Source: Ferruginibacter sp. (GTDB lineage Bacteria; Bacteroidota; Bacteroidia; Chitinophagales; Chitinophagaceae). Taken from it: DNA of 64,000 nt. A model generated the notes under the pieces. The model made no database searches and was not told where the DNA came from. It saw nothing but the letters and a program-made list of their open reading frames with translations. Both the position numbers and the translations under genes were made by a program. This document shows positions 45,639 through 52,979 of this stretch, piece after piece. Each line of letters begins with the position of its first letter. The stretch's first letter is position 1. The stretch is taken from contig JAOQAK010000061.1 in NCBI GenBank assembly GCA_025963635.1, positions 124,001-188,000 of the forward strand. Direction: 5' to 3'.

Positions 45639-47516
45639 TTATGAACTTCTGAAAGCCACGGGGTGATTTAATTTTTTATGAGGCCCCATAAAAATACGCA
45701 GCAAAATGCGAAAGGCTGATAGTTCAATAAACACAAGGCATAGTGCCATCAAAATAATTAATGCAGACTGGTCGCTGTGCACGTAGGTAAACATAACATC
45801 AATCCCTATAAACGCAGCTGTTATCGGGAAGCCCAGCATACCAATGGCCGCAAATAAAAACAGCAGCCCGGTTGTTTCCTGTTCATACACATACCCGTGA
45901 TACTGGTTGAGAGAGATATCACTGTCGATCGCTTTTATTTTTTGCAGGCAGTAATATCCCAATAAAAAAGCCGGCAAAATTCCACTTGCATAAAAGAATA
46001 TCTCGATCGGGTTAATATGTGGAGAATTAAACAATATCGCAGCCATTATAAACAAATGCGCAATTAATAAATACTTCCACGCTTTTAATGCACACTGCCC
46101 GGAAGCAAAAGCGAAAAGAATAAGCGTGAGTGCAGTGCCCATTAAAATAACCGGTAACGCACCATTTAAAGAAGGTATCATACTTTGATCGGTATAGCCT
46201 ATTCCCAAAAGAATAAGACCTGCAAAAGCTGCCAAAACCATAAAGAGACCAGATTGTAAAAACTGTAATTGTTTTCCCAGCCATTTAAATGGACTCCATA
46301 AATAAGTAAACATCAAGCTGTCTAAATTCCATTCTTTAATGCCCAGCATGTATAAGGATGCTTTAAATTTTGAAACCGGTTTTTGCTCCGGAGGCGTGTA
46401 ATGAAAATATTGATGATGTACCAGGTAGTTGAGCACAGATGGAGATACCAGTAACTGGTAAGTTCGTAAAAAAGCGTTGCCTGCAAAATGAACCAATACC
46501 AGCCAATGCCACCCGACGGCAACTTCAATAAACATCAGCCCGATTTGTGCCGCAGATGCATAGGCGATTTGCGTTTTAACGGTCGGTTGTACCCTCGCAA
46601 TGAAAGTAGCTATGATGGCCGTTAGTCCTCCAATAGTGATGATTATAATTTTCGCCCACAACATCTCTTCCCAAAACGGATGCGTACGAAGTAACAAAAA
46701 AACACCAATATGCACGCTTAGCGAACCGTAGAAAATAGCAGAAGAGGAAGTAGGGCCTTCCATCGCCCTGGGCAGCCAGGAAGTGAATGGAAACTGTGCT
46801 GATTTGATAGCAGCGGGTAATATCATCATGCAAACAATAAATATTGCCATGCCTGGAGCCCCCGATGCGATCGCCATATTTTTTGCCTCGGTCAATTTAG
46901 AAAAGGTAATATTCTGGTGAGTAAGATGATGCATCATCCACATAGCAAGCATCAGCGACACATCGCTCATACGGTAATAAGAAATCGCTTTGAAGGCATT
47001 TTTTACCGGGAGATAACGGTTACGGTAAAAGGCTATCAGTAAAAAAGAACAAATCCCTTTTATTTCCCAGCCTATAAAAAGGGTTTCGAAATTGCCGGAT
47101 AAAATAATGAAGTTGTAGCCGGCTGCAAACAACAGGATGGTGTTAAAAAAACGCTTGTAACCTTCGTCACGATGCATGTAATATTTACTGAAAGTAGCTA
47201 CCAGGAAAAACAACAGTGCGCCAACGATGCTAAACACAAGTGTGATTTCATCATAGAACAATTCAAAAGCAAACACAAAATGGTCGGTTTGATAAACGGT
47301 AGCCAGGTGATAGCTTATAGGTTCAAGGCCATTCCATATCCACCAAACAGCAAATGAAAACGAAACCAAAATATATAACACCTTGGTAAATCTTACAATA
47401 CTGCCAATGGTTTTTTCACTTTTATTTTGCCAAAAAAGGCTTACGAGAAATGCCAGGAAAGGGATGGCAATGAATAATACAAGTAGTTGGTTCATTTTAT
47501 TTTTTTCGCCTGTCAT
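45639..47516 (-). CDS. dabB: Proton-conducting membrane transporter (NuoL-like), DabB-type subunit
   Basis: ORF 625 aa; ETLFIGWEIKGICSFLLIAFYRNRYLPVKNAFKAISYYRMSD, SAQFPFTSWLPRAMEGPTSSSAIFYGSLSVHIGVFLLLR; downstream of dabA. Confidence 0.85.
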   Translation of the reverse strand: MTGEKNKMNQLLVLFIAIPFLAFLVSLFWQNKSEKTIGSIVRFTKVLYILVSFSFAVWWIWNGLEPISYHLATVYQTDHFVFAFELFYDEITLVFSIVGALLFFLVATFSKYYMHRDEGYKRFFNTILLFAAGYNFIILSGNFETLFIGWEIKGICSFLLIAFYRNRYLPVKNAFKAISYYRMSDVSLMLAMWMMHHLTHQNITFSKLTEAKNMAIASGAPGMAIFIVCMMILPAAIKSAQFPFTSWLPRAMEGPTSSSAIFYGSLSVHIGVFLLLRTHPFWEEMLWAKIIIITIGGLTAIIATFIARVQPTVKTQIAYASAAQIGLMFIEVAVGWHWLVLVHFAGNAFLRTYQLLVSPSVLNYLVHHQYFHYTPPEQKPVSKFKASLYMLGIKEWNLDSLMFTYLWSPFKWLGKQLQFLQSGLFMVLAAFAGLILLGIGYTDQSMIPSLNGALPVILMGTALTLILFAFASGQCALKAWKYLLIAHLFIMAAILFNSPHINPIEIFFYASGILPAFLLGYYCLQKIKAIDSDISLNQYHGYVYEQETTGLLFLFAAIGMLGFPITAAFIGIDVMFTYVHSDQSALIILMALCLVFIELSAFRILLRIFMGPHKKLNHPVAFRSS

Positions 47517-47847: not shown

Positions 47848-50508
47848 TCAGTCCAGTAGATACACCGGTAAATTCTCTTCCGTAGCATGCACAATATGAT
47901 TGGTTTCCATTTCTTTGGCACCTTCAATAAATTGCTCCATGTTATGAATCATTCCAATCTCGCTGGCATTGGTAATGGGCTCATATTGTATGAATGCTCC
48001 GTTTTTAAAATAATAAAATTGTTGCTCCATCGGATCTAAAGCCATAATATGTACCCACTCATTCTTATACCATTCAAATACTTCGGGTGAAGACTGGATA
48101 GCATGCAAAACAATACCCGGTTTGTGTTCAACAATAACCATCAGGCGAACGGGGTCATGCACTTCAATCATTTGCCATGGCAGGCCCGGCCGTAAATCGC
48201 CATCGCTGCTGTTGGCCACACCAAACAAACCCATTACATTATGTGGCAGTTTGGTACCAGCTCCAACCTTAATATTATCCACTCTCGAAAAATAATATTC
48301 CAGGTTAATTCCACCGCATACCAACCCGATGGGCCGCATTACAGCGGACAAAATTGTTCCATCAGGATCAGTGGTATAATCATAACTGTTAAGAAAAGCT
48401 CGGCGGTCAAGGAACAAACCTTTGGTTACCTTCCTGCGGCCAATAATGGCCAGGGTATTGGTGCCATGCCCCAACTCGGGCCGTGGTTCAAACAAAGAAA
48501 CTGAACGACTGTGAATGGCTTTGCGTACCTGCTCCAATTCCTGTTTGGTATTAATGGATGCAAATCGCCTGCTTCTTTCCTTTGCATTCAGGTTTAAAGC
48601 AGTTTCGAAATTTTGTATGTTAATGAGGTGTACATTTTTATTCTCCGGTGCCAGTACATCTTCGTCATAATAAGCCATTACATCTGCAGCCGTATCGTGC
48701 ATGCTACCGATAAACTGTGTAGTTCCGGGAATTACAATTCCCTTTGCAGCCAGTTTTTCTCTTACCGTTTTATGATTTAATATGAATGCCTGTACCCTCG
48801 CATTGGTTGCGCCCGGTCTACCGCTACAGGCACCACAATCATGTGCGCCATGGTGAGGGTTGTTAGCGCTGCTGCTTCCATGTGCCACAAAGTAAACGAT
48901 GGGAGCAAAACTTTTAACCATACCAATGCCCCGCAAAAATCCTTCGGCCCTTGCTACCATTTCGTCAATGGTATACCCTATTTGTAATCCGTTTTCAATG
49001 TCGGCCGCACTTTTATTTTCAATGGTGAGCGTGGATTGATTGTCCATATGCCCATAGGCATTTGAAATTGCGGGACTCATTTTTGGATGAAAAAGCATTT
49101 GCATTTTTTTTGCAAAGGCCCAGAAACCAAAACTGATACTCAGGAAAAAGCCGGAGATAATCCCATGCGTATATTTGGTATAAATCAACTCTTCCTTCCT
49201 GACAGTTTTAGCGTTCGACTCTTTAATAAGGTACTTCGGCATTACCGGGGCGGGGCAAAGCTTGTCATAAAACTTACTGCCTTGTTGCTGAAAATAAAAC
49301 TCAACACCAAAAAAGCCCGGGGCCCCGAACGTCTCCGCTTTTTTATCCACCGCTTCAATATGGCGGCGAATGGAGTCTTCTCTTTCATCAATGCAGAATA
49401 TGGCTTGAAGGGAAAGCCCCCCTGCCTCCCAAGGGGGAGCCTCCCCAAACCCCTCCAAAGGAGGGGCCTTAGACTCACCTATTGCTGAGAGATCTTCTGA
49501 ATTTGCAGGGTCGAAGAACCCCCCTTCGGGGGGCAGGGGGGCTTTCTCTTTCGGCAGGGTCGTTGGCGCTGCCAATAATATTCCCTTCAACACCGAGTCA
49601 TAATAACTCCACTCAAAAGCCTCCTGCCAGAGTTGTATTACTTCCGCCAATTCTGTTCTAGGCAAATCAGCTAATAAATCAACCGGGGGTACAGACACAT
49701 CGCTAGTTAACGGTTGCCATTTATTTCCTAAAGAATGATTCAGTACATCCAGTTCCATCAACAATTCAAACTCTACAAATTCTTTGAAAGTGATCTTTTT
49801 TCTATCAAGTAATGTTTGGGGATTATCTTCCAATGCACTGATAAAACCACTCCAGCCGTGATGGGCGAAATGTTGATCAAACAGGTATTGTTCAAAATAA
49901 TCAGCTTCGCCAACAATTCTTTCCAATAATTCGCAAATCGAATAATCACCGGATAAAAATTTTCGCCGGATTGCTTTTGTTCTAAAAAAACTCACCAGGC
50001 TGTTTCGCTCCAGTTCTTTGATGCTCTCCGTAAAACTTTTATTCGCAAAAGGAAAGGCCTCAATTGCGATGCCCTGGTCTAAGAAACCACAAAGAATGCG
50101 GAAAAGCGGCGGATGTACTTTATTGTCCAAATCCAGCTGATACACTTGCTTCCACATCTTGCGCAACTGGCCAATCCTTGGATGATTGATCGTATCATAC
50201 ACTGTGTTCAGTAACTTCTCTTTCCACTCCGTGGCGTTGCCGGATTTACCTGCAATTAATTTTTGCAGGATATCTTCCCTGATTCGGCCACTTTTATACA
50301 ACTCCCGGTATTCGGGCAATTGCAAATGCACCTGGAAACCGAATATTTTTGATGCCTTAAAAATGGCATCAAAAAATTTCATGTGCTGAAAAGCGTGTAA
50401 GGAATTATGATGAATAAAATCCTTTAAGGCCTGTTGCGAAGGCAAAAAATGCTTTAGCGCATGCAATACATGGGCTTCATCAAAATGAATACTTTTGGTT
50501 TGGTGCAT
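47848..50508 (-). CDS. dabA: DUF2309 / DabA-type inorganic carbon transporter subunit
   Basis: ORF 886 aa; FHHNSLHAFQHMKF-type N-terminus, FCIDEREDSIRRH and VYFVAHGSSSANNPHHGAHDCGACSGRPGATNARV, matching the Cys-Asp / His-Cys zinc-site regions of DabA. Confidence 0.92.
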   Translation of the reverse strand: MHQTKSIHFDEAHVLHALKHFLPSQQALKDFIHHNSLHAFQHMKFFDAIFKASKIFGFQVHLQLPEYRELYKSGRIREDILQKLIAGKSGNATEWKEKLLNTVYDTINHPRIGQLRKMWKQVYQLDLDNKVHPPLFRILCGFLDQGIAIEAFPFANKSFTESIKELERNSLVSFFRTKAIRRKFLSGDYSICELLERIVGEADYFEQYLFDQHFAHHGWSGFISALEDNPQTLLDRKKITFKEFVEFELLMELDVLNHSLGNKWQPLTSDVSVPPVDLLADLPRTELAEVIQLWQEAFEWSYYDSVLKGILLAAPTTLPKEKAPLPPEGGFFDPANSEDLSAIGESKAPPLEGFGEAPPWEAGGLSLQAIFCIDEREDSIRRHIEAVDKKAETFGAPGFFGVEFYFQQQGSKFYDKLCPAPVMPKYLIKESNAKTVRKEELIYTKYTHGIISGFFLSISFGFWAFAKKMQMLFHPKMSPAISNAYGHMDNQSTLTIENKSAADIENGLQIGYTIDEMVARAEGFLRGIGMVKSFAPIVYFVAHGSSSANNPHHGAHDCGACSGRPGATNARVQAFILNHKTVREKLAAKGIVIPGTTQFIGSMHDTAADVMAYYDEDVLAPENKNVHLINIQNFETALNLNAKERSRRFASINTKQELEQVRKAIHSRSVSLFEPRPELGHGTNTLAIIGRRKVTKGLFLDRRAFLNSYDYTTDPDGTILSAVMRPIGLVCGGINLEYYFSRVDNIKVGAGTKLPHNVMGLFGVANSSDGDLRPGLPWQMIEVHDPVRLMVIVEHKPGIVLHAIQSSPEVFEWYKNEWVHIMALDPMEQQFYYFKNGAFIQYEPITNASEIGMIHNMEQFIEGAKEMETNHIVHATEENLPVYLLD
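49412..49546. repeat. GC-rich palindromic repeat elements inserted within dabA
   Basis: GAAAGCCCCCCTGCCTCCCAAGGGGG (49412-49437) repeats in inverted orientation as GAAAGCCCCCCTGCCCCCCGAAGGGGGG (~49519-49546, - strand); inner palindrome CCCCTCCAAAGGAGGGG (49450-49466). Confidence 0.75.
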
Positions 50509-50524: not shown

Positions 50525-51268
50525 TTAACCTTTTGATTTAACCCGCTGGATTTTATGATTTGCCGCTGCTTTCTTTAAGGGCAATTTTACCACCGGCACA
50601 GCATTCACCTTTACCGGAGCTTTAGGTTTTGTTCCGTTAATGCTAAACCTGTAAATGCTGTCTATATCTTCCTGCCCATCGTGTATTACACTCAGGTCTT
50701 TTATCAATCCATCCTTTAAACCATATACCCAGCCGTGCAAATGCAATTCTCTTTTACTCCAGGCTTCCTGTACAATCGTTGTTTTTGCAAGGTTGCGAAC
50801 CTGTTCAATTACATTCAATTCTGAAAGCCGGTTGGCTCTATCATCTTCATCGGTTATAGCCGCCAACTCCCCCTCATTCTTATGATATACATCCTTGATA
50901 TTCCGCAGCCAGTTATCTACAAATCCATGATAGGTATTTGTCATTGCAGCTTTTATACCGCCACAGCCATAGTGCCCGCAAACAATAATGTGCTTTACTT
51001 CTAAATATTTTACAGCATATTCCAACACACTCAACAGGTTGGTATCGGTATGCACCACCAGGTTAGCAATGTTACGGTGTACGAAAATTTCGCCGCTTTG
51101 CGTACTGGTAATTTCATTGCTAGGTACACGGCTGTCGCTGCATCCTATCCACAAATATTCCGGCGTTTGACCTTTTGATAATTTCTCAAAATATTGAGGG
51201 TCCTGGAATTTTTTTGTTTCAGCGTATATTTTATTTCCCTGTATTAGTTTTTGATATGATTTTTCCAT
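50525..51268 (-). CDS. can: Beta-class carbonic anhydrase
   Basis: ORF 247 aa; WIGCSDSRVPSNEIT, IIVCGHYGCGGIKAA; basic C-terminal tail. Confidence 0.93.
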   Translation of the reverse strand: MEKSYQKLIQGNKIYAETKKFQDPQYFEKLSKGQTPEYLWIGCSDSRVPSNEITSTQSGEIFVHRNIANLVVHTDTNLLSVLEYAVKYLEVKHIIVCGHYGCGGIKAAMTNTYHGFVDNWLRNIKDVYHKNEGELAAITDEDDRANRLSELNVIEQVRNLAKTTIVQEAWSKRELHLHGWVYGLKDGLIKDLSVIHDGQEDIDSIYRFSINGTKPKAPVKVNAVPVVKLPLKKAAANHKIQRVKSKG

Positions 51269-51395: not shown

Positions 51396-52979
51396 CTAAT
51401 CCTGCTCAGAATGCACGTGCATTGCATCTTCCATTTTATATGCAGGCTTGAAGTTTTTTAGTGCCACGGTGATATTTTTGTCTTTCGAACCAAAGTTTAC
51501 AAAGTCCCTGATCAACTCCAGTACATCGTAATCGATGTACACGGTATCCGCGGCATCAATGATCAGCTTGCTGTTTTTTGGCAAATGTGCCAGCGTTTGC
51601 TTAATAGCTGCTTTATTCAAAAATGAAACTTCCTGTGCCAGGTCCATATGCACTGTTTCGCCTTCGTGGTGTTTTTCCTTTTTGAAAAAATAAGCCAGCT
51701 TCATATTCCCTCTCAGTATAAAGAAAATGCTGACTACCAGGCCAATACCTACGCCTTTCAACAAGTCGATGGCAACCACCGCAATTGCTGTTACGATAAA
51801 TGGGATGAATTGAAACTTGCCGGATTGCCACATGTGCTTAAACACTTTCGGACTGGCCAGTCTTAACCCAATCATTATTAAAATAGCAGCTAAGCAAGCC
51901 ATGGGGATTTTGTTCAGAATGGTGGGTATGGCAACTACAGCAATTAAGAGAAATACGCCATGAGCAATTGCAGAAAGCTTTGATCTCGCACCAGCATTGA
52001 TATTAGCCGAGGTTCTTACAATCACCGAGGTCATCGGTAAACCGCCAATAAGGCCGGCAAAAATGTTCCCTATCCCCTGTGCTCTCAACTCTGCATTGGC
52101 ACTGGAAAATCTTTTCAGCGGATCCATTTTATCACCGGCTTCCAGGCAAAGCAATGTTTCAATACTCGCCACTGTTGCAATGGTTACAGCCGTAATCCAA
52201 ACATTGGGATTTGCAAAACCCGAGAAGTCGGGCAACCTGAACTGCCCGATAAATTCGCCGAAGGAAGAAGCAGTAGGCAGCTTCACCAGGTGCTCGCCTG
52301 TGATCACCCAGGCGGGGTTAACTACCTTGTAAAATTCGTTGATCAAAATACCGGCTACCACCACTATCAATGCTCCGGGTATGGCTTTTATTTTCTTTAA
52401 AAAACTAACCTTGTTAAAAGCAATTAAAATACCAATAGAAACAACTGTAACAATGATAATCCCCGGATGAGCATAGTTAAATGAATGGATAATTTCACTG
52501 AAAAAACCTTTATCTGCACTATCCATCAATTCATAAGAATAAAAGTCGCCTTCATGCTCTTTATCATATCCAATGGCATGTGGTAACTCTTTTTTAATAA
52601 TAATGATGCCGATTGCGGTGAGCATCCCCTCGATAACACCGGAGGGGAAGTAGCTGGAAATTCCCCCGGCTTTTGCAATACCTAATGAAAGCTGAATGGC
52701 TCCCGCAAGCACTACTGCTACTAAAAAAGTTTCATATCCCAGATTAGTGATCGCCGCAAGAATAATGGCAATCAGCCCGGCTGCCGGACCAGATACGCTT
52801 ACGTTAGAACTGCTTAGGGTTCCTACAACGATACCACCAATAACACCAGTGATTATGCCCGCAAATGGAGGGGCACCACTGGCTACGGCTATTCCTAAAC
52901 AAAGAGGGAGTGCCACCAGAAAAACCACCATACCCGAAAGCAAATCTGTCTTAAGATTTTGAGTGTTTAATTTCATCAT
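51396..52979 (-). CDS. SulP family inorganic anion transporter with STAS domain
   Basis: ORF 527 aa; LSGMVVFLVALPLCLGIAVASGAPPFAGIITGVIGGIVVG, SVSGPAAGL, C-terminal STAS region. Confidence 0.93.
   Translation of the reverse strand: MMKLNTQNLKTDLLSGMVVFLVALPLCLGIAVASGAPPFAGIITGVIGGIVVGTLSSSNVSVSGPAAGLIAIILAAITNLGYETFLVAVVLAGAIQLSLGIAKAGGISSYFPSGVIEGMLTAIGIIIIKKELPHAIGYDKEHEGDFYSYELMDSADKGFFSEIIHSFNYAHPGIIIVTVVSIGILIAFNKVSFLKKIKAIPGALIVVVAGILINEFYKVVNPAWVITGEHLVKLPTASSFGEFIGQFRLPDFSGFANPNVWITAVTIATVASIETLLCLEAGDKMDPLKRFSSANAELRAQGIGNIFAGLIGGLPMTSVIVRTSANINAGARSKLSAIAHGVFLLIAVVAIPTILNKIPMACLAAILIMIGLRLASPKVFKHMWQSGKFQFIPFIVTAIAVVAIDLLKGVGIGLVVSIFFILRGNMKLAYFFKKEKHHEGETVHMDLAQEVSFLNKAAIKQTLAHLPKNSKLIIDAADTVYIDYDVLELIRDFVNFGSKDKNITVALKNFKPAYKMEDAMHVHSEQD

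Follow-up and report, generated by a model that had tools for sequence, protein, structure and literature searches.

The dabA gene of a Ferruginibacter genome, a bacterial gene for CO2 uptake, contains in frame a G/C-rich palindromic segment. This segment is most likely a miniature, non-autonomous version of a mobile element that has hairpin ends and invades protein-coding genes, and in DabA it would persist as a disordered loop that is not spliced out. Ends of this kind also border a full-length version of the element, whose PD-(D/E)XK-type nuclease (DUF559, Vsr-like) is encoded in the same uninterrupted frame as the host gene. That the nuclease drives the movement of these elements is inferred: no movement was observed, and no activity of the nuclease is known.

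The window, i.e. the whole stretch of 64,000 nucleotides that was analysed, carries on its minus strand an ORF (47848-50508) identified in Pfam as an 886-residue DabA (PF10070, E=1.7e-198), with no further DabA match elsewhere in the genome. Its neighbours form a DAB-type cluster, with genes for a NuoL/Mrp-like DabB (45639-47516), a beta-carbonic anhydrase (50525-51268) and a SulP transporter (51396-52979).

The palindromic segment (49408-49550, minus strand, ~135-143 bp) leaves the dabA frame open and codes for ~45 residues (~318-366) directly ahead of the CID zinc motif (Cys372-Ile-Asp374; 49387-49395, minus strand). We annotate it as the likely miniature form of an in-frame palindromic mobile element, on account of its inverted repeat, its dispersed copies and its absence from, or difference in, orthologues. 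The inverted repeat is 30 nt long (49408-49437 and 49521-49550, 87% complementary), and CCCCTCCAAAGGAGGGG is located at 49450-49466. The middle palindrome has two matches, the two strands of one site, vs 0.06 expected, and as single-stranded DNA the segment has a folding z score of -3.6 relative to shuffled sequences. An earlier note, made from sequence alone, had described palindromic repeats in frame just before the CID motif and an 886-residue frame that remains open; both claims held, with the ORF, the inverted repeat and CCCCTCCAAAGGAGGGG confirmed. Its description of two inverted copies flanking a central palindrome needs to be corrected, as the parts are, in coding-strand order, an end A, a ~26-bp spacer, an end B and a degenerate second A end.

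End A consists of AGCCCCCCTGCCCCCCGAAGGGGGG followed by TTCTTCGACCCTG... (from 49543 to 49500), with the hairpin CCCCCC-GAA-GGGGGG and the outer box AAGCCCCCCTG. Its hairpin portion AGCCCCCCTGCCCCCCGAAGGGGGG (49519-49543, minus strand), which codes for APLPPEGG, matches the genome-wide end consensus exactly, and its subterminal sequence TTCTTCGACCCTGCAAATT (49500-49518, minus strand) is identical at 15 of 20 bases to one end of the nuclease element found in MetG (see below). The spacer (49474-49499, minus strand) contains no nuclease. End B, TCTAAGGCCCCTCCTTTGGAGGGGTTTGGGGAGGCT (49438-49473, minus strand), harbours the hairpin CCCCTCC-TTT-GGAGGGG and the outer box GGGGAGGCT and belongs to a type also seen at C54:112664 and C54:117926. 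The degenerate A end (49415-49439, plus strand) departs from the end-A consensus by three mismatches.

In a sequence alignment with the solved DabA2 (9rd0), Cys351 and Asp353 of the latter correspond to Cys372 and Asp374 here. According to this alignment and to the published zinc site and domain limits of DabA2 (PMC13144422), the insert falls in the linker joining two beta-carbonic-anhydrase-like domains. As the DabA model had no match in a search of PDB folds, this domain-boundary argument rests on the alignment and the published limits. Residues 317-359 of the model have pLDDT values <50 and lie between a helix and the CID strand, and the insert is therefore predicted, in all likelihood, to be a disordered interdomain loop. 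Because the site is a tolerated linker between the two domains, DabA probably remains functional with its insert, an inference made without activity data.

Across the 38 DabA rows compared, the site is a linker that varies in both length and sequence and usually comprises 7-20 residues. The claim that ~45 residues are added N-terminal to the zinc site is therefore only partly correct: the element codes for that many, but the net gain relative to orthologues is ~25-35 residues. The dabA orthologues mostly lack the element, so that the possibility, raised in advance as a refutation, that all of them share the same linker was not borne out. Palindromic inserts of differing sequences occupy the same DabA site in L052, L056, L070 and L077, the last being the cultured Terrimonas pollutisoli. 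The closest DabA relatives belong to the Chitinophagaceae. In a tree built without the linker, the five insert carriers require five state changes, all forced by supported branches. Since the L056 insert is clearly related to that of L070, we count three to five independent insertions.

Among 53 genomes that encode DabA, none was found to have a full nuclease inserted in it. Frames of ~1,400 residues are present in five genomes (G187, G196, G218, G228 and G252). The only one that was read, L260 (G196:C22), does not result from a nuclease insertion; it joins a SulP transporter and DabA in one open frame and might represent a single-chain bicarbonate/DAB protein.

The end hairpins are dispersed across the Ferruginibacter genome. 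A BLAST search of its 6.6 Mb with the segment yielded 73 matches, several of which are the two strands of one palindrome. The end-A consensus matched 33 times, vs 0 for a reversed-pattern control; this supports the earlier inference of a dispersed mobile repeat, which would have been refuted had the element occurred nowhere else in the genome. Open-frame inspection, with hosts identified by Pfam, placed 10 of these 33 A-type ends in frame inside genes (for DabA, GH43, MetG three times, IcmF twice, NirB and a GH71-like protein) and 7 as in-frame N- or C-terminal extensions, the remainder being intergenic or unassigned. Some A-type ends form inverted pairs 129-280 bp apart, and one inverted pair, 477 bp apart, encloses a nuclease. 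Of 28 A-type ends, 16 share at least 12 of 20 subterminal bases with the ends of the nuclease element in MetG, vs a background of 0.27%. Within its genus this genome is a copy-number outlier, the next one (G307) having only 8 A-type ends. It also harbours a second MetG insert, a miniature palindrome in the linker ahead of the C-terminal tRNA-binding domain (L082/L149), and MetG also carries a miniature insert there in G025 and G002 (L244 and L245).

Full-length versions with the DUF559 nuclease in frame inside other genes were beyond the reach of the earlier note. In this genome, PF04480 (DUF559, Vsr-like nuclease) was detected above the cut-off twice, both times embedded in long frames, those of MetG (899 residues) and LeuS (>1,080 residues). 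The interrupted MetG is the single copy, with no second full MetG, and its nuclease is bounded by inverted A-type ends with ~41 bp in common. The 150 top-listed DUF559 matches, from 249 genomes of the order, divide into 58 in frames of at least 350 residues and 92 in frames of at most 250 residues, with none in between. For Y1_Tnp, a control transposase domain of similar size, the embedded fraction is 3 of 150 (p=6e-17). All these counts derive from truncated best-match lists. At the level of the Bacteroidota, DUF559 was found in 173 of 299 genomes, again often in frames of >1,000 residues.

Hosts were identified via Pfam or unmistakable motifs. They include the aminoacyl-tRNA synthetases LeuS (two recurrent sites), IleS and MetG (two sites), the enzymes MetH (two sites), UvrA, CinA, MnmE, IcmF and RecQ, as well as an Lhr-type helicase, HsdR, type IIG methyltransferases, the N-termini of TrpA and ArgB, a DnaE intein and Acs. 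One Acs protein carries two nucleases, at separate sites of one 973-residue frame (L261, G014:C41). Matching inverted terminal hairpins flank most sampled DUF559 copies. With the exception of the DnaE copy, Pfam revealed no splicing domain in DabA or in the embedded hosts scanned. The embedded nuclease is conserved and under purifying selection: 53-54 of 54 embedded copies retain its catalytic D/E/D/H residues, and close nuclease pairs have dN/dS values between 0.03 and 0.14. An AlphaFold model of MetG with its nuclease was of low confidence (mean pLDDT of 59) and was not used.

A few related architectures were also recorded. In the DnaE copy, L253 (G228:C121), an intein (PF14890) has DUF559 as its nuclease, and repeated PSPGP-type peptides, coded by palindromes, flank this domain; the element might thus be able to supply an intein's endonuclease. 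As an alternative cargo, GIY-YIG domains are mostly free-standing or part of UvrC, with a few embedded. We found them embedded in HsdR/helicase-type restriction proteins (L116, L250, L251 and L252), among which GIY-YIG and DUF559 share one frame twice. A Y1_Tnp-like domain lies in frame at the same place of type IIG restriction-modification proteins in three genomes (L247, L248 and L249).

Occupied and empty alleles coexist in the genus. The element occupies MetG site 1, between WGIKVP and GKVLYVWF, in 4 genomes of the genus and is missing from this site in at least 16; MetG site 2 is filled in 3 others. In a nuclease tree, which rests on few columns, some insertion sites form clades, as descent or homing would give. 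Supported clades also mix MetG site 1, MetG site 2, CinA, Acs and MetH, and movement between genes is therefore required. It is IcmF that connects full-length with miniature forms most directly: in G287 a full nuclease lies between ITLAENGE and VLGITGTGGAGKSS, and an IcmF of our genome harbours a half-palindrome in the interval filled by that nuclease. Three longer miniatures showed no nuclease remnant in their spacers, which leaves the ends as the only support for descent by internal deletion. The borders of the dabA and MetG inserts are blurred by variable linkers, and no target-site duplication could be established. Across the genus, A-type hairpins occur in 11 of 18 genomes with a listed DUF559 vs 8 of 41 without (p=0.003), a comparison that is partly circular. 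G307 has its A-type hairpins and no listed nuclease, and G029 a nuclease and no A-type hairpin.

In the mechanism that we propose, the nuclease would nick or cut DNA and thereby cause any sequence with its ends to be copied, usually into allelic sites through homing but at times into new genes. No frame of the G/C-only hairpins contains a stop codon, which would make in-frame landing survivable, and for this reason selection would spare just the in-frame insertions located in surface linkers. Miniatures may be spread in trans by the nuclease or be what remains after its loss.

Other explanations were considered. The hairpins might be REP/REPIN sequences spread by a Y1 (RAYT) transposase, with DUF559 as a passenger. 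The genome does possess Y1_Tnp genes, and paired inverted hairpins look like REPINs. However, its Y1_Tnp loci lack A- or B-type ends, whereas DUF559 copies have matching terminal hairpins; the ends are devoid of the GTAG/CGTC tag, and A-type hairpins are commoner where DUF559 is listed, with the reservation given above. We thus consider this scenario unlikely. Another improbable scenario is that recombination or gene conversion between homologous G/C-rich repeats accounts for most of the spread of the hairpins, with the nuclease serving only for allelic homing. Reuse of the same sites in LeuS, MetG, IleS and MetH and the clustering of host labels on the nuclease tree speak for it, but the close nucleases in MetG, CinA, Acs and MetH, in supported clades, need gene-to-gene movement.

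Two further possibilities have very little in their favour. The variable length and sequence of the DabA linker would fit the expansion of an ordinary low-complexity linker by slippage, without any mobile element, but its ~45-bp end sequence recurs at dozens of unrelated loci and the orthologues that lack the segment have no palindrome. A remnant of an intein or of another self-splicing element, removed from DabA, is suggested by the DUF559 copy inside the DnaE intein and contradicted by the lack of Pfam splicing domains in DabA and the other embedded hosts scanned.

The preferred reading, a miniature of a nuclease-bearing element, can be extended. In a bolder version, these elements form a distinct class in Bacteroidota, made of a Vsr-like nuclease with inverted G/C hairpins and of in-frame miniatures such as that of dabA; this class would enter essential enzymes in frame, persist there as an unspliced domain and represent the autonomous partner of protein-coding palindromes. 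We see this joint proposal as being as open to failure as to confirmation. Since 2000, protein-coding palindromes have been known as orphan repeats, mostly from Rickettsia and Wolbachia, and to our knowledge they have no established way to move; the apparent full-length relatives give a palindrome of the present kind a plausible self-mobilising partner. The phenomenon now extends to a large phylum of free-living bacteria, where it comes with a candidate enzyme, with occupied and empty alleles in one genus and with essential enzymes that bear an added nuclease domain, and the origin of such elements and the gain of new segments by proteins become directly testable. The DUF559 'domain fusions' seen in aminoacyl-tRNA synthetases and comparable proteins probably reflect the insertion of mobile elements rather than functional fusions. 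In the open-access PMC literature searched, which leaves out subscription papers and preprints, we found no earlier account of DUF559 elements with palindromes or in-frame residence.

Several known systems share features with these elements. Like REP/REPIN-RAYT systems, they comprise paired inverted hairpins dispersed in a genome, but their untagged ends are unlinked to Y1_Tnp and often lie inside genes. The dabA element resembles MITEs in being short, with terminal inverted repeats and without a transposase, and some bacterial MITEs fuse in frame to genes. The apparent partner here, however, is a nuclease rather than a DDE or HUH transposase and itself stays in frame in its host, and no target-site duplication has been shown, the borders being blurred by variable linkers.

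The full-length elements are reminiscent of homing endonucleases: they have intact catalytic residues, reside at recurrent sites of conserved genes with a patchy presence and with occupied and empty alleles, and are under purifying selection, and one copy is the nuclease of an intein. This likeness does not extend to the dabA copy, which has no nuclease, and cleavage of the empty allele is inferred. Unlike in intein or intron homing, there is no splicing domain, the nuclease domain stays in the host enzyme, inverted hairpins form the boundaries and many unrelated genes are involved.

The earlier note had likened the dabA segment to protein-coding palindromic elements such as the Rickettsia RPEs, which holds as a way of working and not as membership. 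RPEs and the Wolbachia protein-coding palindromes are stem-loops of 105-146 bp with terminal inverted repeats, found in intergenic regions and in frame in conserved genes, whose proteins tolerate them, and an RPE-bearing guanylate kinase remained active (PMC2229807, PMC10969869). The relevant sections of these two reviews name no autonomous partner for RPEs. Our elements differ by their occurrence in Bacteroidota, their hairpins of G/C runs and their nuclease-encoding full-length relatives, and the likeness is one of form and of residence in genes. Both main features of RPEs are nevertheless met here, as the dabA segment is a palindrome of similar length with terminal inverted repeats, and elements of this kind reside in frame in several unrelated conserved genes as well as between genes.
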